DNA from: Prorocentrum cordatum
Lineage: Eukaryota; Sar; Dinophyceae; Prorocentrales; Prorocentraceae
Reading direction: 5' to 3'
Length of the DNA stretch: 64,000 nucleotides
NCBI GenBank assembly: GCA_963575745.1
Contig: CAUYUJ010004758.1
Coordinates: 124,001 to 188,000 of the forward strand
The translations under genes were made by a program, and so were the position numbers. A model generated the notes under the pieces. It had not been told where the DNA came from, ran no database searches, and saw only the letters and a list, made by a program, of their open reading frames with translations. Below, piece by piece: positions 6,034-52,600 of the stretch (its first letter is position 1; the number at the start of each line of letters is the position of its first letter).

Positions 6034-6287
6034 TCAGAGATCGCATGCGAACAACGATCCATCATGTCTTTCGGCACCTCGTTAGCATCATTCCCCTTGC
6101 TCGTGCAAAGTGAAACTAAAAAAACATAGCGCCTGATCCCCGTCTCCGTTTTTACCTAACAGCGAAGACTGATAGGTTTCTAGTGGGATCAAAAGAAAGC
6201 AGCAGATCACTCCACAGGGGGGTCCGGGCAGGTGTTGGGAGTTGCCGGGCGGCAGTGAGCCGGGCTCGTTTTTCACCAACAGTCACG

Positions 6288-6645
6288 CACTTCGTGCTCT
6301 TCGCCTTCCCAGAACTCCATTCCCAGGCCACATTCTGGGGGGCCGGATGCAACTGTAGGCCACTTCGTGCTCTTCTATTTCCCAGAACTCCATTCCCGGG
6401 CCACATTCTGGGGGGCCGGATCCAACTGTAGGCCACTTCGTGCTCTTCCATTTCCCAAAACTCCATTCCCGGGCCACATTTTGGATGCCCGGAGCCAACT
6501 GTAAGCCACTTCGTGCTCTTCCATTTCCCAGAACTCCATTCCCGGGCCACATTTTGGATGCCCGGAGCCAACTCTAGTCCACTTCCTGGTCTTCGAGTTC
6601 CCAGAACTCCATTCCCGGGCCACATTTTGAATAGCCAGACGCTTC
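6288..6645. repeat. 73-bp tandem repeat, about five units
   Basis: CACTTCGTGCTCTTC recurs at 6288, 6361, 6434 and 6507, and as CACTTCCTGGTCTTC at 6580: exactly 73 bp apart. Each unit carries CAGAACTCCATTCCCGGG. The same array, seven units, lies at 51144-51630 in element B. It sits at the 5' end of both elements, a place where promoters or binding arrays are often found. Confidence 0.9.
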
Positions 6646-6759
6646 ATACTCCTTCCGCCACAGCTGTGTTTGGTTCAGGACTTGCTAGTGACACTGCAGT
6701 CCTCTGCATTCAATTGGCCACTACATTCATTCACTGCAGTCCACTGAGTTTTGATTGCA

Positions 6760-8945
6760 ATGGCGTTCCCCTGGCCGTACCCCCATGTCCAACGTTCATC
6801 CGCAGCCTCTGCTCCGCGAGGCTCGTCCGAAGTGTCGCCGCCTCGCGGTGCTTCTCAGCCTGCGCCGCCTCGCGGTGCTTCTCAGCCTGCGGAGGAAGGT
6901 GGACAGACGCCTGGTTCTGGCGCTGTGCAGCCTGCGTCTTTCACGGTCGCCTCGTTCAATTTCGGGTTCGAGCAGGGCATGATGACTGGTAAGCAGGCGG
7001 CCACTCACTGCGCTAACTTCGGAAGGTTGTGCGCCAAGATAGTGGAGACCGCTGATGCTGATATGGTCTGTGGCTGCGAGGTCGGTGCGTTCCGTGAAGG
7101 CTTTCGCCGAGCAGGGATCAACGTGACAGAGATCCTCAGTAAGCCTTTCGGTGATGGCATTCGCTTCTCGGAGGTCGACAACTACTTGACTCTCTGGGGG
7201 TTCCGCGGTGCTTCTCAGCCTGCGGAACTGACTCTGTGCGAAGACAGCAAAGTTTACAGGCCTCCTAGCGGCCGAGAGATTGATGCTGTTATTTCACATT
7301 TTGAGGTGAACAAACCAGGCCATGACAAGTTCCACGTGGTGATCGCCAACATGCACATCGTGTGCGGCAAGAAACCGCCGACCATCCAGACTCGAAAGCG
7401 GACAGTTCGCCATCTCCGCTTGCACCTGGACGGCCTGGCCAAGATTCTTGAGATCTAAACCAGGCAGTCGTTCTGCTTGTAGTCGGCGACGACAACCTCA
7501 CTTTCCAGGAGGCGCGGGAGGCTTACCAGCGCCAGCAGAACGACGAGAAGCTCTGGGAGGTCCATGCCACTCCGGCCGACCTCAAAGGCGACCACGTCGC
7601 GGTCTGCGGAGCAGTCGCCCGTTTCTGCTCCATTGCCGTTGGCGCGTCTTTTACGGATCGTGGCATGCGCAACGACGCACACGATGCGGTGGCGGTTGTG
7701 CTCACTCTCCCTGGTGCTATTCAGCCTGGGGAGAGCAAGAGGCGGAAAATTGTCGTCGAAAACGTCTCCGACGCCGACGTCAGCGTACAGGCGGACCGCG
7801 AGTCTTCTGTGCATTGGGATCGGTCGCCGAGTTCTGCTCCTCCGCTTTCACCGACTTCACCGGGTGATCCCGACTACGTCGAGGATGTCGTTCAGAATCG
7901 CGCGGACGACTTGCACAGGGAGCTGAGGCAGCTTTGGGACGACAGGTACGACGAGGAGTACGATCCGAAAGTCCTCCATCATCTCAGTCTCTTGCTTTTC
8001 AAAAAGAGGAAGTCCACGGAGCCAGCGGACACTAATCCAGCTGGCGCTCCTCAGCCTGGCTCGGAATATGACGCGGCCTTTGCGTCTCAGGAGGAGACTG
8101 GCCGAGCCATTCTCTCTGTCCTGAAGCTTCGACATGACTTTCTGCGGAGCAAGAACATCGACGACATGCGCTACGTTCTCACGGAGCCTGAGCGCCAGGA
8201 ATTGGTCAGAGTAGCTCGCGACCAGTACGAGCAGTCGCGGCAGCAGCGTGCGCTTCAGGAACGGGATATCGAAAAGGGAAAAGCGAAAGGCAAGTCTGCG
8301 CCACAAGGGGGCCATGCGGTTCCGCAGGGTCCTAACAAAGGGCCAGGCGGTAAGAAAGGTTCTCACGGTGCTTCTCAGCCTGCGGGAAAAGGTGGCCAGG
8401 CCAAGGGTGCAGGTCTGGGTAGCGTCGCCAAGTTTGTGAAAGACCAGAAGCGTAAGCGGTGGCATCGCCATTTGCAACGTGTGGCCGGTACCAAACAGAT
8501 CTGGGAGGTGCTGGCCTTCTCAGGGCGCTTCGACGTTGATTGGTTAACGCAAGCGTTGCAAGCTGATCACAGTGAGGGCCGTGATGCAGCAGTTCCCGAG
8601 GAAGCTCTGCGGCAACAGCGGCGCCGGCTGCACCACCAGAAGGCCGAGGCCATCGCGCGCTACAACGAGGGGGAGCGGCTTTCCCGCCATCTGTCTGCCC
8701 AGGCTGGCCAGCCAAAGCCGAACTTCACGCGCAGGCAGCTGGACGTGTTGCAGATGTTTGAGAGCGGAGCGCTGCTTCAAATCCGCAACCAAGCGATTCT
8801 GGCGTTGGGGCACGGCCGTCTGTTCAGGGCCGATGGCGACTACCTGGACATCGGCGGCAGCACGGGCGGTGGCTCCAGGCGCATCATCGATTCTTGGCAG
8901 CCGCCGGACTGGCGTGACTTCCTCCAAGACGATCAGGACATCTGA
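6760..8945 (+). CDS. EEP-like (endonuclease/exonuclease/phosphatase-fold) protein with long basic C-terminus, broken by one frameshift
   Basis: The first ATG is 6760 (GCAATGGCG). Frame 1 runs to a TAA at 7456 and the reading resumes one frame over (NQAVVLLVVGDDNL). A single missing base near 7456 explains the break. Across the joint the EEP landmarks appear in order: VASFNFG, DMVCGCEVG with the expected catalytic Glu, FHVVIANMHI, VVGDDNL in place of GDFN, and RNDAHDAV in place of SDHxPV. The rest (to 8945) is a Lys/Arg/Gln-rich region followed by a globular tail ending DFLQDDQDI. A complete in-frame piece starts at ATG 7665. The motif RGASQPA is repeated at several places and is encoded by a DNA repeat that also occurs outside the gene. 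Non-LTR retrotransposons carry EEP domains, but no reverse transcriptase follows here. Confidence 0.55.
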
Positions 8946-8965
8946 GTTTTGCAAGTCTCCCTGCC

Positions 8966-9215
8966 CGCGGTGCTTCTCAGCCTGCGGTCTGCCGCTCTCC
9001 AGCTGCGGTCTCGAGCAGTAGTGTTCGAAAGCATGCGAGTTCCTGCGGTGCTTCTCAGCCTGCAGGTTTCGCAGCCTGCGCTCTGCAGTACAAGTGCTTT
9101 TCAGCATGCGACATCCTGCGGTGCTTCTCAGCCTGCAGGGTTCGCAACGTGCGGTTTGCAATGCATTCCTTTTCAGTATGCGAGTTCCTGCGGTGTTTCT
9201 CAGGCTGCAGGGCTC
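8966..9215. repeat. Cluster of GCGGTGCTTCTCAGCCTGC units outside the reading frame
   Basis: Four units at about 8978, 9044, 9117 and 9189 follow the stop of the EEP-like gene. The same 19-mer encodes RGASQPA inside that gene. Further non-coding copies lie at about 9739, 11501, 11558, 11845 and 11918. Confidence 0.8.
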
Positions 9216-9487
9216 CGAGGCTCTTCGCTTCGATGCCAATGTTTTCAGACACCGTAGCTCCGTTCCGTAAACATCTTCCAAGAGCCGCTCGCAACCTTTT
9301 GCAGCTGGCTGTCTGCACGCTTCGCCGGCTTTTGCTGCGCGGACAATTTTCTCACACACGTCAGCGCCGTTTGTAGGCGTCAGAAAAACATGTAGACATT
9401 CACGAAGGGCTTAGTCTGTATATCGTCACATCATTACATACGCAGTCGTCGAACACATCGGTGTACATTCAGCGCTTTGTCCTTCTA
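9078..9487 (+). repeat. 410-bp direct repeat, copy 1
   Basis: Nearly identical to 11806-12248, from GCGCTCTGCAGTACAAG to TTTGTCCTTCTA. Each copy lies downstream of one of the element's two genes, like a shared 3' tail. Copy 2 differs mainly by a 33-bp insert near 12045. Confidence 0.9.
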
Positions 9488-9539
9488 CAGCATTCTTTCC
9501 GTTGATAACAGTGTTCTGATGGGTTCGCTTCGTTCTAAA

Positions 9540-10335
9540 AGCGTTGATAGCAGTGTCTCGTTTGCGGACAACTCATTCTATATCAACTCACTGATACCGA
9601 GTTTCCTTTCACCATAAGTGAATGCATACCAGTGTATGTTGGTTACTACAAAAGTGGGTTCCTACAACCGACTTCATGATCGCTATCATCATCGCAGATT
9701 TCACTCATCCTCATCACCACGACTGGTTCACGTTGGCCTGCGGTGCTTCTCAGCCTGCAGTTCCTTTCGTTACACTGTAGTTGAAGCCGTTCATGGCAGT
9801 GACTCGTTTAAAGACAACTTTAGTATTGGGGGAAGTGTCGATAGCAGCGTTTCTTTTTACTTATACAAGCGTTGATAGCAGTGTCTCGTTTGTGGACAAC
9901 TCATTATATATCAACTCATTCATACAGAGTTTCTTTTCGCAGCAAGTGAATGCACAGCAGTGTATCTGCATTACTGGCCCCCACTCCATTATCACTATCA
10001 TCATCAACTATTTCCTACACGCGTGTGCGCGGCGGTCGCCATGAGTGAATAGTTTGCAGAGACTTCTCGCATTGATACCCATGGGTCACTTCAGAGTGAA
10101 CTCATTTGTGATCTTCTTTCAATGGAAGTTGAATCGGTTGATGGCAGTGCCTCGTTTAAACTCCACTTTGGTATTGCTAGTAGTGTCAATGCCAGCGTTT
10201 CTTTTTAATTGTGCAAGCGTTGATAGCAGTGTCTCGTTTGTGGTTTGTTATAACAGCGTTGACAGCAGTGTCTCGTTTGCGGACACCTCATTGTACATCA
10301 ACTCGCTGATACCGGGTTTCCTATCAACACCATCA
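9540..10335. repeat. About 330-bp degenerate tandem repeat, 2.5 units
   Basis: The core GTTGATAGCAGTGTCTCGTTT recurs near 9542, 9868 and 10219, and again near 10258 in a variant. Each unit also has a CAACTCA[C/T]T[G/C]ATACxGAGTTTC block and a GTGAATGCA block. More AT-rich than its surroundings. No gene seen. Confidence 0.7.
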
Positions 10336-10414
10336 TCATCATCCTTAACCATGTTTGCTCGAGTTTCACCTGGCCGTCCAGCCGCGGCGGTGCTCCTCAG
10401 ACTGCCTTGTCACA

Positions 10415-11365
10415 ATGCCAGCACGCGGCAAGGCATCGCCCCCGCCACCCCCGGCCCCGTGCGATGGCCCGTGGGAGATTCTGCCGGATCCGCCCGCACC
10501 GACTCCTCAGCCAGGTGTCGACGTGGTCTTTGAGCAGGCTCACCTCGAAGACATCCGCCGTACACCAGGGATGGGCGGCAAGACCGCCTGCCAGTGTCAG
10601 CGCGCGCTGCGCGCCGAGTGCATTGTCAACAACTTGTCGTTCAAAGACGTAACAAACGACCCGTCCTACGACTGGAAGCAACTGCTTCGGTCTGCCGCTC
10701 CGGGTTTCGCTGAGCGCATAATCGGGCAGGGCATCGCCCAGGTTCTCTTCCGCATCATCGAGACAGAGCGCGACCCTAACTACTCCAACACGGATGGCCA
10801 CGGCAGGCACTTCTTCGAGTTCCGTCGTGCAGACGGTTCAGCCATGCGCCTGCATTACCATAAGAACGGCCGACCCGATGAGCCCACCTATGTCGGTCCA
10901 CCACGCGCCGTTGCTCAGCCTGCCGTGCCTGAGCCTGGCGCTGCTCAGCCTCATGTTCCTCGTGGCGTCGCTGCTCAGACTGCCGTGCCTGACGGTGGCG
11001 CTGCTCAGCCTGCCGAGACTGGCGGTGATGCCCCACTGCTCTTCACACAGGAGCACCTGCAAGAGGCAGCCTGCTCGCGCCAGATTGTGGGCCGCGACGA
11101 AGCCAGCGCCGCTCTCCAATCGCTGTTGCACTACCACCATGGCGAGACTGCCCCAGGTGCTGTTGACCTCACCGATGGCTCAGCATTTGACTGGCTTCGA
11201 TGGGTGGCACATATCGAAGATGCGCGCGACGTCATCCGCAATGGCGTCCACAGGGTCTACGCTGTCCGCTGGAATCCGCACTGGGCTCCAGAGGCCGTCT
11301 TCTGCTACGGCAACAACACCTACAGCACACTGGTGCCCCGCAAATCGCGCTACACAGGCTCGTGA
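10415..11365 (+). CDS. Hypothetical protein of element A, about 316 residues
   Basis: ATG 10415 opens MPARGKASPPPPP; an earlier in-frame ATG at 10355 is possible but encodes unconvincing sequence. After a Pro-rich start come a globular block (VDVVFEQAHLEDIRRTPGMG, later ERIIGQGIAQVLFRIIETE and GRHFFEFRRADG), then four imperfect AAQPAVP-type repeats, then a second globular block ending YSTLVPRKSRYTGS. The repeats are encoded by GCTGCTCAGCCTGCC units, a diverged form of the element's 19-mer. Both genes of this element therefore carry the same repeat as peptide. I do not recognise a family. The frame is intact, unlike its neighbour, and its stop is followed by the shared 3' tail. Confidence 0.6.
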   Translation: MPARGKASPPPPPAPCDGPWEILPDPPAPTPQPGVDVVFEQAHLEDIRRTPGMGGKTACQCQRALRAECIVNNLSFKDVTNDPSYDWKQLLRSAAPGFAERIIGQGIAQVLFRIIETERDPNYSNTDGHGRHFFEFRRADGSAMRLHYHKNGRPDEPTYVGPPRAVAQPAVPEPGAAQPHVPRGVAAQTAVPDGGAAQPAETGGDAPLLFTQEHLQEAACSRQIVGRDEASAALQSLLHYHHGETAPGAVDLTDGSAFDWLRWVAHIEDARDVIRNGVHRVYAVRWNPHWAPEAVFCYGNNTYSTLVPRKSRYTGS

Positions 11366-11805
11366 GCCACGCGCGAATTGTGACTCACCGGAACGCCAAT
11401 TGGGTGACCGAACCGTTGCTATCTGCGGCCCCTGTGGCAGCTACGCCGTGGCTGGTGTTGCGGGATCAAATAACCTGGGAGTGATCTCTGGCAAACGAGA
11501 TGTGGTGCTTCTCAGCCTGCACTCATGTGACACGCAATGCCGTGCCCTGCATTCGCGTGGTGTTTCTCAGCCTGCACTCGCAGGTCCTTCGGAGGTCAAT
11601 TGTTATGAGTTCGGCACGGTCTCGGTCAAGTACAGCGTGCTGTGGGGATCCCGAGATGGGGCCTGGCTCAAGGTGCTCAAGACGTACTGGAGTGTCCCAG
11701 AGCCGGAGTGCCAGCTGATCCTCGAGAGTTGGAACGGCATTTTCAGGCCGTGGCCGGACACGTTCTGGATCAGGACGGGGGGGTCCGAGCCCGAGATAGA
11801 TGCTA

Positions 11806-12248
11806 GCGCTCTGCAGTACAAGTGCTTTTCAGCATGCGACATCCTGCGGTGCTTCTCAGCCTGCAGGGTTCGCAGCGTGCGGTTTGCAATGTATTCCTTT
11901 TCAGTATGCGAGTTCCTGCGGTGTTTCTCAGGTTGCAGGGCTCCGAGGCTCTTCCCTTCGATGCCAATGTTTTCAGACACCGTAGCTCCGTTCCGTAAAC
12001 ATCTTCCAAGAGCCGCTCGCAACTTTTTGCAGCTGGCGGTCTGCAGACGTAGTCTGTCTCAGCATGCGAGCTCCCGCACGCTTCGCCGGCTTTTGCTGCG
12101 CGGACAATTTTCTCACACACGTCAGCGCCGTTTGTAGGCGTCAGAAAAACATGTAGACATTCACGAAGGGCTCAGTCTGTATATCGTCACATCATTACAT
12201 ACGCAGTCGTCGAACACATCGGTGTACATTCAGCGCTTTGTCCTTCTA
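11806..12248 (+). repeat. 443-bp direct repeat, copy 2
   Basis: Second copy of 9078-9487, with an extra 33 bp around GACGTAGTCTGTCTCAGC. Divergence is only a few substitutions, so the duplication is recent compared with the pair at 2.1 and 16.9 kb. Confidence 0.9.
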
Positions 12249-12257
12249 GCTGGGTCG

Positions 12258-12590
12258 CTTCGTGCTGAGGCTGAGGCTGATGCAGGCTGAGGCTGAGGCA
12301 GGCTGAGGCTGAGGCCGAGGCCGACGGCAGACTGAGGCTGAGGCAGGCTGAGGCTGAGGCAGAGGCAGGCTGAGGCTGAGGCTGAGGCTGAGGCAGGCTG
12401 ATGCTGAGGCAGGCTGAGGCTGAGGCTGAGGCTGATGCAGGCTGAGGCTGAGGCAGGCTGAGGCTGAGGCCGAGGCTGAAGGCAGACTGAGGCTGAGGCT
12501 GAAGCAGGCTGAGGCTGAGGCTGAGGCAGGCTGAGGCTGAGGCAGGATGAGGCTGAGGCTGAGGCAGGCTGAGGCTGAGGCTGTGACTGC
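12258..12590. repeat. GAGGCT/GAGGCA hexanucleotide repeat
   Basis: GAGGCTGAGGCAGGCTGAGG units for about 330 bp. In element B the matching place is filled by a GGAGGA tract, but the last AGGCTGAGGCTGAGGCTG and the following unique 3' end are shared. Confidence 0.9.
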
Positions 12591-13006
12591 GACTGCCGTT
12601 GCCACTGCGACTGTCCTCGCGAATGCGACAACGACTGCGAGAACAGCAGAATTCTACAACTGGATTCTCATCCGAATCTTAAGGGGAATGCTTCCAGATA
12701 TGCTCCTACACATGGCTGTTAGGTTGCTTTGCCGGGATACCCCTGTTCTCCTCCGTCCACCCGCACTCGTGGAGCAAGGCGTCCCAGTTGTGCCAATTGT
12801 CTTTTTTTCACTGTGTTTTGCTCGTGCGATTCTTGGTGGACTTTATTGCGCTCGCAGAAGCTGGAATCACCTCCAGGCCCGAGAGAGTGCCCACAAGATA
12901 AAACATGCGAAACAAGCGAATCACGCAAAACGTGCGAAACACATGCCCCCTCTCATGCATCAAGTGCTTTGCAGGGCCATCAAGTGCTTTGCAGGGTCCT
13001 CATTCA

Positions 13007-26999: not shown

Positions 27000-29900
27000 C
27001 AGGGCGCGCGGCGGGCGGCCAGCATCGAACGAGGTACTTTGCGCACTCTACAACGTGTTCCGAACGCATGCGGTGGTCATGCTCCAACGATGGGTGTGGG
27101 AGTAGGAAGAGGGTGTAATGGCCTGCCGAAGGCTCGGGACGATGGTTTTTGGGGCGTCAAGAGACACCCGGGCAAAGCTCCGCTCCGTAACCGACCACGA
27201 GGACGACGACGACGCCGAAGACGACCGACGACGAAGAGGACGACGGCGGCGACGACGACGGCGACGACGACGACAGACCCAAAGATCCCCCGGTTCGGGG
27301 GGGGCCCTCCTGCTGCTGAGGGCCGGGGGGGAGGGCTGTGTCGAAGGCCAGCAGACCAACGACGGCGCAGTGTGGAACCCGGAGGAACCGTGGCCCTCCC
27401 CCCGGTGTAGGTGGAACCTACACCGACGCAAGGGGCAGCGCCCCTGGGCTGCAGCAGACCCCAGACTAGATGCCACGAGCAATGCCCTGGGAGAAAAAAC
27501 GGGAAAAAACGAATGGCCATTAATGTGGAGGAGGAGGCATGGAGGGACCGCAAGGAGGATGATGAAGGGCTCTTCTCTTCAAAAAACTCGTCGCTCTCGC
27601 CTTCAGGACAGTTCACCTCCCTCGCCCCCTGCCTCGGGCAGCCGTCTGCCCCGCCTTCGCTTTTGCTCCACGGCCCCGCGCCGGGCCCGGCGCCTGTCCC
27701 CCGTTGCCTGTTTTGGCGGCGGGGCGGCGCTTCACGATGGCCCGCTGAACGGCGCCTGCCAATCGGCCTGGCGGTTTCGCCGCCGGTTTCGCTTTGCCCG
27801 CAGCAGGCGCCAGGCCGGGAGCCCCTGCCGCCGCGCCAGGAGGGGGGGGGACGGGAGCAGGGGCGGGGAAGAGAGGGGGAGCCGCCGGGGGAGGAGGGAG
27901 AAGGGGAGGGGGGGGAGGAGCGAGGGGCGGAAGGGGGAGAGGAGCCAGGGGCCCCCCGGCCGGCGGCGGAGGTTTCGGCGCCCCCTTACACTTGACCTCA
28001 TGATTCCTCATGGGTCTGGACAGCTCCCCAGGCGGGGGTTCGGGAAACTCTTTCCCACATTTGCCACACGTGCGGTTTGCCAGCCGCGAGCCGCGGCACT
28101 TGCCCTCATGCTGAGTACGGTGCGATGCAAGTATCATGACATCACACTTGCGGCATTTGGTGTAGCCCTCCGGGAGGACTGGAACGGTTGCGGTGCAGCG
28201 CCGAACATGCCATTTGATGTCTTTGGTCAAGACTCGCTGGCCGCACTTCTTACAGAGGTCCGTTTCAGCATAATGCAAGTCGCAAACCGCTGGTGGCGGT
28301 GCTGACCACCGGCTGGACTGCGCAGAAGCGAATCCGCGCCGTCCGATGTCGGCGGCTCGGTCTGCTAATTCGTTGTCATGGGCTCCAGTATGGCCATACA
28401 CGTGTTCCCAAGTAATCTGACGGGTCCGCTGGACCTCCTGCGTGAGTTCCATGACAGCCTGGGCCAACTCCTCATTGGTGCTCGGCGTCCAGATGCCCTG
28501 TGCCATGTTTGCTGCGTATTCCGAATCGTACCGGATGTGGACGGGTACGCCCCCTGGGTCGGGGGCCTCGTCGAGCAACCACTTCATGACTTCCCCAATG
28601 GCTGATAATTCAGCCGTATTGTTGGTCTCATCTCGGGCCCCAAGCCATCGGTGGTCCCACTGTGCAGTGACTACTGGAGCGTGTAACACATAGTCCGGAA
28701 CTCGATCCGGGCCCTCGGGGCCGTCGTATCGAAAGATCACTGCACCCCACCCCGCCGAATCATCCTTACCCGAGCCGTCAGTGGCGATCCACCACCCCCG
28801 GGGCGGGGCGGGACAGGGGCCCCGCACTGGTCCCATGACATAGTTTTGGTGAACCTGTAGAGCCTGACGGAGCTCCAGTTTAGCTGGGCACTGCGGCTTG
28901 TGGAGGCGCAGAGCCTCTCTAGAGAACCATCGCTTGCAATCTGTGCACTGGTGTGAGGCCCATGTAACGAGAGACGGATCACGCACTGAGTGTGCACTGT
29001 CGTAATGGCAAGATAATTGGTTGCCGGCTGTGAACTGTTTCGGGCAAACAGGGCATTTGTAGATTCGGTCCTCCTGGAGCGGGTCCCCTCCGAAGGGAGG
29101 GGGAGGAGGAGGAGGAGGAGGAGGAGGAGGAGGCCCCGGGGCCGGGGCGGGATCCGCTCCCGGGAGGGCCATACCCGGTCCCCACGCGACCAATTGATTC
29201 CTCCGCTCCTCACCGCGGCCTTTGACCGGGAATGCCTTGTTAATCGCGCTCTGCCAACCCTTGCGGGACTGCGCCCGGCGGAACCAATCCATCTCTTCAA
29301 TAGACAGGCGACGAATGCATCTCCGGAGCCACGGAATCTGGCCGTGCGGATTCGAATGCTCCTCGACCCCTCCACCGCGACACGATAAGAAGCCGAACAG
29401 TACCTGTTTCGGAGCCCGCCATGTCGGCATTCGAGCGACGTGACCCAGCCACTGCAGGGACAGCCGGGCCACCTGATCCTCAACCGTCCGCCATTGCGCC
29501 GCGGCGTACATGTCCGCATCGGTGACATGGTACTCCTGCATGATCCATGTGTCCATGCCGAACGCCCTCCGGACTGCGTAATTAGCTACTCTCTGGAGTT
29601 TGCGAAACTCCTCCTTGTTCCACCCGCGCGACCGGCAGCTAAAAAGTAAACAACCCACTATGCAGGATTCGAGCACCTGGAGGCGCGTGGCGATATCCAC
29701 CCCACTGGTTCGGCCCCGGCCGTGTGCTGTCCCCACCGCCCATCCTTTGGCGATTGCTTGCACGAGCAAGCGAGCGGTGGACGCGCGCCGCGCGGTGTCG
29801 GCGGTCCGCAGGCCAGTTTCCATATGTATGGCGCCAATGTGTTTCAGCTGGTTCGTCTCGAATTCTCGTCTGACGTCATAGGGCAGTCGTGGATCCCTCG

Positions 29901-32900
29901 GGAACCGGAGCTCCTCCGTTTTGCCCCTATTCACCCGCTCCTCCCAATCGTTCATAGTTTCGATAAGGAGGGGGCGAGCGACTTGCATCTCAGAGTCAAA
30001 GCCCACAATGGCCGTGTCGTCCGCAAACCCCACGTCGCCTATAATGGCTTGGCGGAAGCCCAGATCCTTGGGGTGGTCCTCTTTTTGTGACTGAATCCGA
30101 TTCCTGGCCTTCTTCTGCAATCGACCATCCACCTGGTACGTGAGCTCCAAGCCCGGGGTGCGATCGTGGGCCTCAGCCGCCCGCTTGCGCCGGGCTCTGT
30201 AGTCGGTCATCACTGCATCATGGTACACGTTAAAAAGGGGAGGGGAAGATGGATCCCCCTCCCGGAGCCCGCGCTCTGGGGTCCACGAGTCAGAGACTCC
30301 TCCGAGCACACGGACCCGGCACTCCGTGTAGTTGCGTAAAGCTTTACAGACCCTGATCATGCCTTCGGGGCAGCCTCTGCGCGCCATAAGGGTCCACAAA
30401 GCGGAGCGGCAGACCCGGGGGTACGCTTTTTCGATGTCGAAAAAATCGAAGATGACTGCCTCATCATGTTGGAGGGCGGCGGCCTCCTCAACCAATCGAC
30501 GGGTGACTTGGAGAGCGTCGTCCGTGCCCCGGCCGCGCCGGAACCCGGACTGTTGTTCTCCCATCCAGGGCTCTGACCAAGCACTGACGCGGGACGCGAC
30601 AACCCGTGCTAGCAGCTTGCTTCCTACCGACAATAGGGTGATCCCCCGCCAAGTGTTTTTGTCTTTCCGGGCCCCCTTCTGTTTCCAAAGTGGGATGACC
30701 AGTGCCTCCCGCCACTCTTGGGGCCAAGCGGCCGCCTCTGCTCCGTCCGCGGCCGTCGCGGCGCAGTTCCACATCTTGCGGGTTAGTTCGTAAACCTCCC
30801 CGCGGAACGCCGCCCCTCCGTATTTGAGGGCCTCCGCTACGAAACCGTCAGCCCCCGGTTGCCGCCCCGTTTTCATCTTGCTCACACTCTGATCCAATTC
30901 TATGTCTGTGGGTGGTTCTGCTAGCCACCGTGCCGCTGTAGAGGCTAGAGGGATGTGCTGCCACACGCGGTCGGCGACCGCACCCGGTGTGCCCGAGATC
31001 TGTGCGAAGTGTTTTCGCCATGCTTCTCGCTCCTTATCTATGTCTCCCGTGGAGACCACGCCCGAGTCCCGGCGGTCGTGCCGGCGATTTTTCAGTTCGC
31101 CGAACAGCCTGAAGAGCTCAGACTGATCGCCCATCCGGGCCGCGGACGACGCCTGCGCCCCCATGTCCGTCCAATACGCCCTCTCCCAGGATCTCAGAAT
31201 TCGGCGACGTTCCCGGGCCACGCGGCGACGCTCTGCCAGGGCCGCAGGGGCCCCGGCGTCATCGGACAGGGCCCAAGCAGCCCGGGCGCGTTCGATCTCA
31301 GCGTCAAGTTTCGCCTTCTCCTCCTCATGTCCGCGTAGCCAAGGCACCTGGGCCCGGGCTTGGCGTTTGCCCAAGACCTGCATTCCCGCCGCACGAGCGA
31401 TGTTGCACAACTCGACCCACCCCAGGGGGGTGTCCTGAGCGAGAAGCATTTCGGAAACGGCCCGGCCGAATTGTGCTCGGGCCTCTTTGGCCGCGGGGGA
31501 CGACCCCCGCATGGCCGCGTAATTGGGCACTGCGGGGCGGTTGTCGCTGACGCGACCGCTGCCCAACCATCGACCTTTGATGGTGATCCCTACCTCTACT
31601 GGCTCGTGGTCCGTATATGCGGACCACGCTACGACCCCGTCCTCTCGGACGTGCCACACGTCGTCGGAACGACGTCTCTTCCGGCGTTTTGCCCTCCTCT
31701 CCCCCTGCATCCCCCCTCCCAGGCCGAAATGTAAGGTGTGCACATGGCGAACGATGCTACGATCCCGCGGCCGGACCATGATGTGGTCAAGCTGATGCCA
31801 CGACCGGTACCGCGGGTGAAGCCAGGTGCCTGGTTGACGTTGGGCAAAGGCAGTACTTGCGATGAATAGCGACTCGTTCTGACAAAAGGCCAGGAGCTCC
31901 TTACCCGACGCCGTGCGCCGAGGGTCCCCCTGTCCTCCGATTGCCGCACGCTCGTCGTCGTCCACAGGGCGACCTACTTCCGAATTCCAGTCACCCCCGA
32001 GGACTAGGAGGTTGTTCGCCCCACGGCACCGCTTCTCTACCCAACGGACCTCATCATAGAAGCGCTCTCGCGCCTCCGCGTGTTGAGATCCAGATATCGG
32101 TGCATAGACGCACATCAAAGAAACGCCTCGCCGGTAGCCTTTCCTAGGCAACAACACCCCCACGCACCGAGTGCTTTTCCTTTCGTGCCCACCTCTCACT
32201 ACGACCTTAGCCCCCCCTTCCCTCCAGACCCGTGCCAATCTTGCATTCAACACTATCCCGACGCGGCCGCGGACGATCAATGTCCACCGGTGCCCTTTGC
32301 ACAGGTACTCACGCACTCCGTTGTGCGTGAAGGATACGTCACTGAGCAGACCATACGACCACCCGCGGACCACCATCAGGGTCAGGATGCACTGGATTTT
32401 CATCTCTGGGTCTCCCACCCCCCCAAACGCCCCCAGCTTGCGAGTGTTCCACGTGCCGCCAAGAAGAGTCTGTACGCGAGGACGTTTGTGCCTACGCAAG
32501 ATGGATAGGCGATGCAATGCGAGAGAACGCTTACGCTTGCGACGCTGTTTCCGGCGAGCCTCGCGAGCCAGCCTCCGCCGCTCGCAGCGCTGTGCCCTCC
32601 CTCGGGCCTTCCGCGCGTGGTGGCCCGAAAGACCCAGCGAATCCGTAGATAGAGGAGGCAGCCACCCCTCCTGACCATGGCCGGAGCCACCGCCAGAAGA
32701 CACAGCCGCCTCTCCCAGGGTACCCTCAGCCGGGTCGCCTGGGCCAGTGGCGTCCCCGGGGTCCCCCATCCCCCTGGCAGCCGAGGAGGGTCCGGGGACC
32801 CAACCACCTCTACTGCCTGATAGTGGGGGTGGGGTGTGTGGAGTCCCGCCCCCTAACGGTTCCCAAAAAGACTCCGGAGACGGCTGAACCGAGACCGATG

Positions 32901-33164
32901 CGACAGACACGCTGCCCGAAACCGACAGCCGCTCCCCTGCTAGAGACCCCGAGGGGGCGCCCCCGGAGGGGCATGGGTTAGCCTGATCCCCATCCATGGC
33001 TGCAACCCCCGACCACCAGAAGATAAAACACAATCCGAAGACCCATGGATTCATCCTCCCCCCACGTCTGCTTTTGGACCCGGCTCGAAAAAAACCCGGA
33101 GAAGGGGAGGAGAGGGGACCGTTTCCCGCCGACCGCCCGTCCCGGGAGGGGATCCCGGGCTCAC
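27000..33164 (-). mobile_element. Non-LTR (LINE-type) retrotransposon insertion, approximate limits
   Basis: The protein-coding part is 33054-27613. The 5' limit must lie within 33164-33054 if the splice donor at 33164 belongs to the host. The 3' limit is not defined: there is no clear poly-A tail, and a GTCGTC-type simple repeat at 27195-27285 may be the tail or the insertion edge. No ORF1 was found upstream. Confidence 0.55.
27613..33054 (-). CDS. Non-LTR retrotransposon ORF2: EEP endonuclease, reverse transcriptase, RNase H
   Basis: One uninterrupted frame of 1813 residues from ATG 33054 (the frame extends to a GTG at 33180, unlikely as a eukaryotic start). It opens MNPWVFGLCFIFWW, hydrophobic, then Ser/Pro-rich sequence and an Arg/Lys block. 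The EEP endonuclease spans about 200-490: GTWNTRK, GGDWNSE (D355, N357), LDHIMV (D423) and TDHEPV (D482, H483). The RT has FDIEKAYPRV (D873), GDPSSPPLFNVY and FADD (D1012, D1013). C2H2-like fingers (KCPVCPKQF...H) follow. RNase H keeps all four acids: TDGSG D1426, TAELSA E1482, YDSEYA D1510, ELADRA D1565. Three Cys/His motifs and a Pro/Ala-rich, Arg-rich tail end it. All catalytic residues are present, so it could encode an active enzyme. It is longer than typical ORF2 proteins because of its termini. Confidence 0.93.
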   Translation of the reverse strand: MNPWVFGLCFIFWWSGVAAMDGDQANPCPSGGAPSGSLAGERLSVSGSVSVASVSVQPSPESFWEPLGGGTPHTPPPLSGSRGGWVPGPSSAARGMGDPGDATGPGDPAEGTLGEAAVSSGGGSGHGQEGWLPPLSTDSLGLSGHHARKARGRAQRCERRRLAREARRKQRRKRKRSLALHRLSILRRHKRPRVQTLLGGTWNTRKLGAFGGVGDPEMKIQCILTLMVVRGWSYGLLSDVSFTHNGVREYLCKGHRWTLIVRGRVGIVLNARLARVWREGGAKVVVRGGHERKSTRCVGVLLPRKGYRRGVSLMCVYAPISGSQHAEARERFYDEVRWVEKRCRGANNLLVLGGDWNSEVGRPVDDDERAAIGGQGDPRRTASGKELLAFCQNESLFIASTAFAQRQPGTWLHPRYRSWHQLDHIMVRPRDRSIVRHVHTLHFGLGGGMQGERRAKRRKRRRSDDVWHVREDGVVAWSAYTDHEPVEVGITIKGRWLGSGRVSDNRPAVPNYAAMRGSSPAAKEARAQFGRAVSEMLLAQDTPLGWVELCNIARAAGMQVLGKRQARAQVPWLRGHEEEKAKLDAEIERARAAWALSDDAGAPAALAERRRVARERRRILRSWERAYWTDMGAQASSAARMGDQSELFRLFGELKNRRHDRRDSGVVSTGDIDKEREAWRKHFAQISGTPGAVADRVWQHIPLASTAARWLAEPPTDIELDQSVSKMKTGRQPGADGFVAEALKYGGAAFRGEVYELTRKMWNCAATAADGAEAAAWPQEWREALVIPLWKQKGARKDKNTWRGITLLSVGSKLLARVVASRVSAWSEPWMGEQQSGFRRGRGTDDALQVTRRLVEEAAALQHDEAVIFDFFDIEKAYPRVCRSALWTLMARRGCPEGMIRVCKALRNYTECRVRVLGGVSDSWTPERGLREGDPSSPPLFNVYHDAVMTDYRARRKRAAEAHDRTPGLELTYQVDGRLQKKARNRIQSQKEDHPKDLGFRQAIIGDVGFADDTAIVGFDSEMQVARPLLIETMNDWEERVNRGKTEELRFPRDPRLPYDVRREFETNQLKHIGAIHMETGLRTADTARRASTARLLVQAIAKGWAVGTAHGRGRTSGVDIATRLQVLESCIVGCLLFSCRSRGWNKEEFRKLQRVANYAVRRAFGMDTWIMQEYHVTDADMYAAAQWRTVEDQVARLSLQWLGHVARMPTWRAPKQVLFGFLSCRGGGVEEHSNPHGQIPWLRRCIRRLSIEEMDWFRRAQSRKGWQSAINKAFPVKGRGEERRNQLVAWGPGMALPGADPAPAPGPPPPPPPPPPPPPFGGDPLQEDRIYKCPVCPKQFTAGNQLSCHYDSAHSVRDPSLVTWASHQCTDCKRWFSREALRLHKPQCPAKLELRQALQVHQNYVMGPVRGPCPAPPRGWWIATDGSGKDDSAGWGAVIFRYDGPEGPDRVPDYVLHAPVVTAQWDHRWLGARDETNNTAELSAIGEVMKWLLDEAPDPGGVPVHIRYDSEYAANMAQGIWTPSTNEELAQAVMELTQEVQRTRQITWEHVYGHTGAHDNELADRAADIGRRGFASAQSSRWSAPPPAVCDLHYAETDLCKKCGQRVLTKDIKWHVRRCTATVPVLPEGYTKCRKCDVMILASHRTQHEGKCRGSRLANRTCGKCGKEFPEPPPGELSRPMRNHEVKCKGAPKPPPPAGGPLAPLPLPPLAPPPPPLLPPPPAAPPLFPAPAPVPPPPGAAAGAPGLAPAAGKAKPAAKPPGRLAGAVQRAIVKRRPAAKTGNGGQAPGPARGRGAKAKAGQTAARGRGRGR

Positions 33165-33296
33165 CTGGAGGGCCCTCCACAACGCGTGGGCGTTGTGCAA
33201 GTACTGCGCGACGACCTCGTCATCTACGAACTCGACCTCGTCCGAGCAGTCGACCTGCCACCCCTTCTCAACGATCGATCGCTCGACAGTGCTGCG
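33165..33296 (-). CDS. Exon with consensus splice sites directly upstream of the LINE
   Basis: 44 codons, phase 0 at both ends. GAAGCAG precedes RSTVERSIVEKGWQVDCSD, followed by EVEFVDDEVVAQYLHNAH and ALWRALQ, then CAG|GTGAGC (intron from 33164). The sequence looks like a real acidic-amphipathic protein and differs from the flanking TCC repeats. No family recognised. The LINE start codon lies about 110 bp inside the following intron, so the retroelement appears to have landed just past this donor. Exon 34732-34661 is also phase 0 and could be the first exon of the same gene. Confidence 0.45.
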
Positions 33297-51004: not shown

Positions 51005-52600
51005 TTTTTACCTAACAGCGAAGACTGATAGGTTTCTAGTGGTCTCAAAAGAGCTCACAGATCACTCCACAGGGGGGTCCGGGCAGGTGTTGGGGAGTTG
51101 CCGGGCGGCAGGGTGCCGGGCTCGTTTTTCACCAACAGTCACACACTTCGTGCTCTTCGACTTCCCAGAACTCCATTCCCAGGCCACATTCTGAATACCC
51201 GGATGCAACAGTCACACACAAAGTGCTCTTCGAGATCCCAGAACGCCATTCCCGGGCCACATTTAGAATAACCGGATGCAACAGTCACACACTTCGTGCT
51301 CTTCGAGTTCCCAGAACTCCATTCCCGGGCCACATTTTGGATGCCCGGAGCCAACTGTAGGCCACTTCGTGCTCTTCGAGTTCCCAGAACTCCATTCCCG
51401 GGCCACATTTTGAATGCCCGGAGCCAACTGTAGGCCACTTCGTGCTCTTCGAGTTCCCAGAACTCCATTCCCGGGCCACATTTTGAATGCCCGGAGCCAA
51501 CTGTAGGCCACTTCGTGCTCTTCGAGTTCCCAGAACTCCATTCCCGGGCCACATTTTGAATGCCCGTAGCCAACTGTAGGCAACTTCGTGCTCTTCGACT
51601 TCCCAGAACTCCCATTCCTGGGCCACATTTTCAGCAGGTGCAAGAGCACGACGAGGAGGAGGACGAGCAAGACCAGGAGGACGAGGACGAGCAGGAGCAG
51701 GACGAGGAGCAGGAGGAGCAGGAGAAGAAGGACGAGCAGGAGGAGGAGGAGGACGAGCAGGAGGAGGAGGACGACCAGGAGGAGGAGGACGACCAGGAAG
51801 AGGAGGAGGAGGAGGAGGAGGGGAGGGGGAGGAGTACCAGGAGGAGGAGGAGGAGGAGGAGGAGGAGGAGGAGGAGGAGGAGGAGGAGGAGGAGGAGGAG
51901 GAGGAGGACGAGGACGAGGAGGAGGAGGAGGAGGAGGGGGGGGAGAGTACCAGGAGGAGGAGAACGAGGACCACCAGGAGGAGGAGGAGGAGGAGGAGGA
52001 GGAGGAGGAGGAGGAGGAGGAGAGAACACCAGGAGGAGGAGGACGAGCAAGACGAGGAGGACGAGAACGAGGACGACCAGGAAGAGGAGGAGGAGGAGGA
52101 GGAGGAGGAGGGGAGGGGGAGGACTACCAGGAGGAGGAGGAGGAGGAGGAGGAGGAGGAGGAAAGAGGGGAGGAGGACGAGGAGGAGGAGGAGGAGGACG
52201 AGAGGAGGAGGGGGGGGGAGGAGCACCAGGAGGAGAGAACGAGGACCACAGGAGGAGGAGGAGGAGGAGGAGGAGGGAGGAGGAGGAGGAGGAGAGAGGA
52301 GCAACCAGGAGGAGGAGACGAGCAAGACGAGGAGGACGAGAACGAGGACGAGCAGGAGGAAGAGGCGGAGGAGGAGGAGGAGGAGGAGGAGGAGCAGGAG
52401 AAAGAGGAGGAGGAGGAGGAGGAGGCAGGCTGAGGCTGAGGCTGTGACTGCGACTGCCGTTGCCGCCGCGACTGTCATCGCGAATGCGACTACGACTGCG
52501 AGAACAGCAAAATTCGAAAACTGGATTTTCATCTGAATCTTAAGGGGAATGCTTTCAGATATGCTTCTACACATCGCTGTTAGGTTGCTTTGCCGGGATA
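51005..52600 (+). mobile_element. 1.6-kb derivative of the 6.6-kb element (element B), no genes
   Basis: Same left end (TTTTTACCTAACAGCGAAG) and right end (CGCTGTTAGGTTGCTTTGCC) as element A. It keeps the roughly 130-bp leader (ACTCCACAGGGGGGTCCGGG), the 73-bp array with seven units at 51144-51630, and the 3' 170 bp from AGGCTGAGGCTGTGACTG onwards. Between these lies an 800-bp GGAGGA tract instead of the two genes. This is the structure of an internally deleted, non-autonomous copy. The inverted ends match over 12 bp (ACCTAACAGCGA). Confidence 0.65.
51640..52430. repeat. GGA/GAG tract inside element B
   Basis: Almost 800 bp of GGAGGA and GACGAG units. Glu/Arg/Gly frames on plus and Leu/Ser/Pro frames on minus are artefacts. 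Confidence 0.95.

Follow-up and report, generated by a model that had tools for sequence, protein, structure and literature searches.

A probable Helentron-like element family in Prorocentrum cordatum whose copies carry a stand-alone EEP gene, a second gene, both or none

Helentrons and HINEs are described as inserting into T-rich targets, with at least two Ts at each end and no other change of the target (Thomas et al. 2014, PMC4067079). The same description gives known Helentrons an endonuclease that is fused to the Rep/helicase and, in addition, extra genes that were likely captured. The left module of HINEs is reported to contain a subterminal inverted repeat (subTIR) together with a complementary inverted repeat (PMC7492417). 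Here, we compare these systems with two units in a 64-kb stretch of the genome of the dinoflagellate Prorocentrum cordatum (the window), one of 6.6 kb (6149-12739) and one of 1.6 kb (51005-52600), which have common boundaries. Both units likely belong to a Helentron-like (Helitron2-type) family of rolling-circle transposons that inserts at Ts and carries, in some of its copies, an EEP-fold gene, a second gene of no recognised family (gene 2) or both.

A sequence-only reading of the window had proposed that the same outer ends bracket the two units and that these ends are short inverted repeats. This was borne out by BLASTN, in which the left ends (6149-6300 and 51005-51156) matched at 93.5% and the right ends (12561-12739 and 52422-52600) at 93.3%, and the outer boundaries of both units stop at matching bases. 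The 12-mer ACCTAACAGCGA (at most one mismatch) is present four times in the window, at 6154 (+), 12713 (-), 51010 (+) and 52574 (-), versus 0.11 expected, and none of 100 shuffles reached four. Genome searches covered the whole assembly (4,128,499,153 bases in 21,875 contigs), where the 12-mer has 9829 forward and 9731 reverse matches versus 79 and 90 for the reversed control. If one forward and one reverse match are assumed per element, this corresponds to nearly ten thousand elements, although repeat matches, not elements, were counted. Other genomic copies agree that these ends define the unit. In 20 end-pairs sampled with 300-bp flanks the layout is a T-run, ACCTAACAGCGAAGACTGATAGGT, the interior, TCGCTGTTAGGTTGCTTTGCCGGGATAA and then Ts, with small variations. 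The repeats are asymmetric, lying 0 bases from the left end and 15-16 from the right end. The right-hand repeat of the 6.6-kb unit has one mismatch, which it has in common with a second composite copy, L070.

Movement has left its traces at the insertion sites. Flanks were parsed at 47 of 50 loci (L012, L015 and L020 were left out). The left flank ended in at least two Ts at 46 of these and had no T at one; the right flank started with at least one T at 45 and with at least two at 34, and had none at two. The sequence-only reading had called for a look at target-site duplications: apart from the Ts, 46 of the 47 loci have no direct match between their flanks, L058 being the exception. Paralogous empty sites were sought with 45 joined flank pairs (L025 and L029 lacked joined flanks of full length) among the sequence stretches extracted. 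At L040, the clearest case, the element occupies a single arm of a host palindrome; the mirror arm (93.7%) continues without a break and contains two fewer Ts. Weaker cases are L057 (82.8%), L032 (82.6%) and L055 (80.2%), whose alignments cross the junction to element-free places. Other listed alignments that span a junction (69-77%) are too divergent to carry weight, and those of L011 and L022 simply enter another element copy. Head-to-tail tandems were seen at L011, L014, L016 and L022/L023, with 29-31 bp from the start of the right repeat to the start of the next left repeat; tandem copies are known in the Helitron superfamily, as described in PMC7492417.

The 6.6-kb unit had been read as a mobile composite element with an EEP-fold gene and a second gene, and it is indeed an EEP plus gene 2 composite, with both genes damaged. 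An EEP-fold gene is present as claimed, but in the window copy it is broken into two overlapping frames; it is 98.9% identical to an open genomic copy (21 mismatches, one gap). From 14,935 first-look candidates 64 copies were scored, a selection that favours open frames and high identity, and all 64 are without internal stop, with open frames of 713-742 amino acids. At each of the 30 loci read, the top of these 64, the repeat (at most two mismatches) is present on either side of the gene. The unit is within 100 bp of 4.02 kb at 23 of the 30 loci; seven, L012 among them, differ by more. In the alignments listed for twelve of the 30, matches to the window unit extend over most of the locus, so that there is little room for a Rep/helicase gene. 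The 30 open reading frames (ORFs) differ by 0.1% on average; eight synonymous and eight non-synonymous variants, for 1470 and 4567 opportunities, give a ratio of 0.32, based on few variants and a biased sample. The near-identical open units among the scored copies and the nearly ten thousand end repeats per strand suggest recent activity in this dinoflagellate.

The EEP protein has 56 database matches with long frames and 29-65% identity to the first row. Fold searches support the EEP fold. The element protein is 12-16% identical to TDP2, nocturnin and other phosphodiesterases of the superfamily (PDB 4fva, 6bt2 and 3mpr) and, compared to TDP2 and nocturnin, has about 400 further residues that are barely covered by the fold search. 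The motif positions of the superfamily, which we take to be N, E, D/N and H, are found as N34 in 10 of 11, E74 in 13 of 15, D211 in 19 of 19 and H275 in 22 of 24 rows covering the position. The protein is a predicted EEP-fold nuclease.

Gene 2 had been taken to be intact, which does not hold for the window copy, whose frame stops short (Table 1). All 125 genomic copies scored, out of 2,019 first-look candidates and with the same preference for open frames and high identity, match the relative P0057 over all 320 residues, without a stop and with 99-100% identity. The family has 29 database matches with long frames and 32-83% identity to the first row. Three coding layouts have the same ends: EEP units (mostly 4.0 kb), gene-2 units (about 3.1 kb) and the composite. 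The gene-2-only layout was read in one diverged copy on contig C37, where two repeats (L081 and L067, one mismatch each) are about 3.1 kb apart and gene 2 matches residues 43-320 of P0057 at 87% identity; of the exact matches to the hairpins described below, only three are listed on this contig, and the EEP cluster is missing. The composite L070 is 98-99% identical to the window unit over most of its length, with both frames open. By coordinates, an EEP copy on contigs C13379 and C19234 is followed on its strand by a gene-2 copy 1,581 bp downstream, and C381 and C414 have the hairpin spacing of the composite. In the window copy an EEP unit and a gene-2 unit are joined, probably at their shared 443-bp 3' region repeat, since the fusion point falls at the two copies of this repeat (9078-9487 and 11806-12248). 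A hairpin core was also seen near a divergent gene-2 relative (L060, C15:471274; 51.5% to P0081), with no recognisable element ends within the 3 kb read; this is possibly another subfamily.

The common form of the family seems to be a gene-less passenger, and the 1.6-kb unit in the window is an ordinary gene-less relative. Twenty loci were chosen as plus/minus repeat pairs from the first 100 listed places, and none carries a gene; as this choice selects for both ends, the proportion of gene-less copies cannot be taken from them. A 73-bp minisatellite is present in all 20 and is followed in 19 by a long microsatellite, usually of the (GCTGAG)n or (GAG)n type, L053 having short ones only. The hairpin core (at most two mismatches) was found in none of them. 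From 8,020 exact hairpin matches at about 7-10 per unit we estimate, rather than count, coding units on the order of a thousand.

These bulged hairpins form an array of one type. Their core GGTGCTTCTCAGCCT (at most three mismatches) occurs 20 times in the 6.6-kb unit, always on the plus strand, versus twice in the rest of the window. They typically fold into a stem containing a single bulged T/U, a second stem (GCT/AGC) and a loop of four bases, and the two arms covary. Arm positions 3-7 of 17 non-duplicate copies form 48 Watson-Crick pairs versus 25.1 +/- 4.1 with shuffled right arms, a value reached by none of 20,000 shuffles, and the mean fold energy is -12.0 versus -9.0 +/- 0.5 with swapped arms (lowest of 200 swaps, -10.4); the copies at 9093, 10937 and 11821 pair poorly. 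A 17-base version has 4067 + 3953 exact matches in the genome versus 0 + 0 for the reversed control. Within the unit it has 23 matches (at most four mismatches), 11 of which fall in the frames of EEP and gene 2, where they share a single reading frame and encode G-x-x-Q-P-[AG] or close variants. This peptide is present in 34 of 35 aligned EEP-family proteins (79 occurrences versus a shuffled mean of 0.9) and in 26 of 29 gene-2-family proteins (43 versus 0.5), which suggests a long shared history of EEP and gene 2 in one element lineage. The non-coding copies suggest that the nucleic acid itself is under selection too, or else that the hairpin spreads as a small palindromic insert. The array seems to be a case of a nucleic-acid motif shaping protein sequence. 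We know of no transposon with a comparable covarying internal hairpin array, though no search was aimed at this. A literature search, with most subscription papers and supplements outside its scope, found 'GASQPA' in no paper, and no paper with both dinoflagellate and Helentron or with Helitron and Prorocentrum.

The sequence-only reading could name no class for the element. This has to be revised, as the ends match Helentrons and HINEs in most of the features tested, as far as these are described in PMC4067079 and PMC7492417. The subTIRs of Helentrons, HINEs and DINE-1 are 12-13 bp long and those found here 12 bp, within the roughly 12-15 bp expected of the class, in which the left subTIR lies at or close to the 5' end and the right one inside the 3' end, as here. 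In both, the left subTIR contains one side of the 5' inverted repeat; here the first nine subTIR bases pair, with one mismatch, with 6169-6177. Further likenesses are the T-rich and otherwise unchanged target with a variable number of Ts, the internal tandem repeats and microsatellites of gene-less copies and an EEP-type endonuclease in the biology of the family (PMC4067079). Cg_HINE of the Pacific oyster has a left module with an 11-12-bp subTIR and a complementary inverted repeat 1-12 bp away, then a satellite-like array, a microsatellite and a right module (PMC7492417), an order that recurs here. Canonical Helitrons (5' TC, 3' CTRR, A/T target; PMC4067079) were considered as well and are ruled out by the ends and the T target. 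Unlike in Helentrons as described in PMC4067079, EEP is stand-alone here, with its own C-terminal region, and is not fused to a Rep/helicase; both gene 2 and the hairpin array come in addition, the 3' palindrome is missing, and at 13 of the 47 loci the right flank starts with fewer than two Ts. At 15-16 bases, the right repeat is nearer to the end than in mite Helentron-type elements, where the distance is about 38-60 (PMC4067079). The right modules of Cg_HINE do have a 3' palindrome, and coding units of the present type are not described for Cg_HINE in the available part of PMC7492417. The lack of a 3' palindrome and of Rep/helicase, the stand-alone EEP gene, gene 2 and the hairpin array are the features that fall outside the standard class.

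Several observations weigh against a Helentron-like nature. No Rep/helicase was found in the units, that is, in the four scanned frames of the window unit, nine homologues and the two genes of L070. Helitron Rep/helicase genes are plentiful in the genome (151 matches, with 1,615 candidates of which 150 were scored). The repeat (at most two mismatches) was found at 0 of 10 Rep/helicase loci with 1.5-kb flanks, several of them near-identical, and in 0 of 1 further 5' region of such a locus, stretches that may not reach the element ends. The fold of the 5' hairpin (-4.2 kcal/mol) is only modestly better than that of shuffles, being equalled by 10 and 20 of 200 in the two units (z -2.01 and -1.33), and no 3' palindrome was detected in the last 51-52 bases of two copies (z +0.56 and +1.41 versus shuffles). 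At the insertion sites, L058 is the sole parsed locus of 47 with a direct match other than Ts, TTATG, which may be a 5-bp duplication; the alignment of L050 to a place without the element (81.3%) is gapped at the junction; the left side of L012 is rearranged; and the EEP units L015 and L020 have the same aberrant right junction. We call the element Helentron-like and not a confirmed Helentron, because no partner element was found, in weak tests, and the 3' palindrome is missing. As to the junction of L015 and L020, the right repeat is fused directly to a left-module position that matches 6211 of the window. Several of the Helitron Rep genes in the genome (among L071-L080 and the listed matches) fall into families whose members score similarly and have frames of the same length, over 1,000 amino acids.

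A Helentron-like element of this kind would move by a rolling circle via single-stranded DNA, with Rep/helicase supplied in trans. The EEP protein may be the nicking or end-processing nuclease, a role that is fused to Rep/helicase in known Helentrons; it could nick the T-rich targets or, because its fold is TDP2-like, release a 5'-tyrosine-linked Rep. The hairpins might be tags bound by an element protein on RNA or on a single DNA strand. Put together, this would be a multipartite rolling-circle transposon, in which Rep/helicase, EEP and gene 2 are distributed over different units that have the ends in common and act in trans on one another, and in which an element-coded protein recognises the hairpin array, dispersed over coding and non-coding sequence, an array that has imposed GASQPA on the proteins of the element; we regard this extended model as doubtful. 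With the nuclease separate from Rep/helicase, the role proposed for the Helentron endonuclease would be testable on its own.

Alternatively, EEP and gene 2 could have been captured from the host and be carried along by a gene-less Helentron-like element, without contributing to its movement. Capture has a precedent in the extra genes that Helentrons bear according to PMC4067079, and the hairpins that mark coding units were held by 0 of the 20 end-pairs sampled. But both proteins form database families with long frames (56 and 29 matches), both families have the hairpin-encoded peptide (34/35 and 26/29), and EEP lies between repeats at 30 of 30 loci read; we consider capture unlikely. EEP nucleases are known to serve LINEs. 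It is conceivable that the EEP protein nicks T-rich DNA and that the reverse transcriptase of such a non-LTR retrotransposon copies a hairpin-bearing element RNA, and insertion at T-runs, strand-specific hairpins and a LINE-type ORF with reverse transcriptase and RNase H in the window (27613-33219) are compatible with that. Inverted subterminal repeats and head-to-tail tandems are, on the other hand, not features of LINEs, and 46 of 47 loci have no target duplication beyond Ts, unlike LINEs; a LINE partner is highly improbable in our view. Repeats flank 30 of 30 EEP loci, so that no 5' truncation was seen (the 20 gene-less loci, chosen as pairs, are not counted). The unit itself is no LINE retrotransposon by these flanking repeats and by its scanned ORFs, which contain no reverse transcriptase and, as the sequence-only reading had it, no known transposase either. 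That last point, together with the inverted repeats and the apparent internal-deletion derivatives, would suit a cut-and-paste transposon with terminal inverted repeats in which the EEP protein or gene 2 acts as an unrecognised transposase. We give this idea very little credence: the repeats are asymmetric, flanks have no direct match except Ts at 46 of 47 loci, and the best empty site (L040) differs from the filled site by two Ts. The Helentron-like assignment is the one used in Table 1, where the parts of both units are listed.

Table 1. Positions of the parts of the 6.6-kb unit and of its gene-less relative in the window
Feature	Position	Strand	Remark
T-run at insertion point	6149..6153	+	host or terminal Ts; length differs among copies
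Left end, subterminal inverted repeat ACCTAACAGCGA at 6154-6165	6154..6177	+	
73-bp minisatellite, left module	6288..6629	+	also in 20/20 gene-less units read
EEP gene, broken in window copy	6760..8945	+	two frames, 6748-7458 and 7452-8945, overlap
20 bulged hairpins of one type, core GGTGCTTCTCAGCCT (at most three mismatches)	6847..11934	+	in coding and non-coding parts
3' region repeat (410/443-bp), first copy	9078..9487	+	91% to 11806-12248
Spacer from EEP part to gene 2, containing short direct repeats	9490..10340	+	
Gene 2 (no family recognised)	10415..11365	+	40 codons short in window copy versus relative P0057
3' region repeat, second copy, closes gene-2 part	11806..12248	+	
(GCTGAG)n-type microsatellite, right module	12264..12583	+	
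Right end: inverted repeat 12713-12724, then TGCTTTGCCGGGATA	12713..12739	+	no hairpin better than shuffles
HINE-like relative without genes, same ends; left module, minisatellite, (GGA)n and right module	51005..52600	+	

The LINE-type ORF of the window (27613-33219, minus strand) encodes 1,868 amino acids with reverse transcriptase and RNase H and, by eye, an N-terminal endonuclease region; GASQPA is not in its translation. A 196-bp tandem unit forms three arrays between 39837 and 43401, which are separated by arrays of (CAT)n and (TCC)n.

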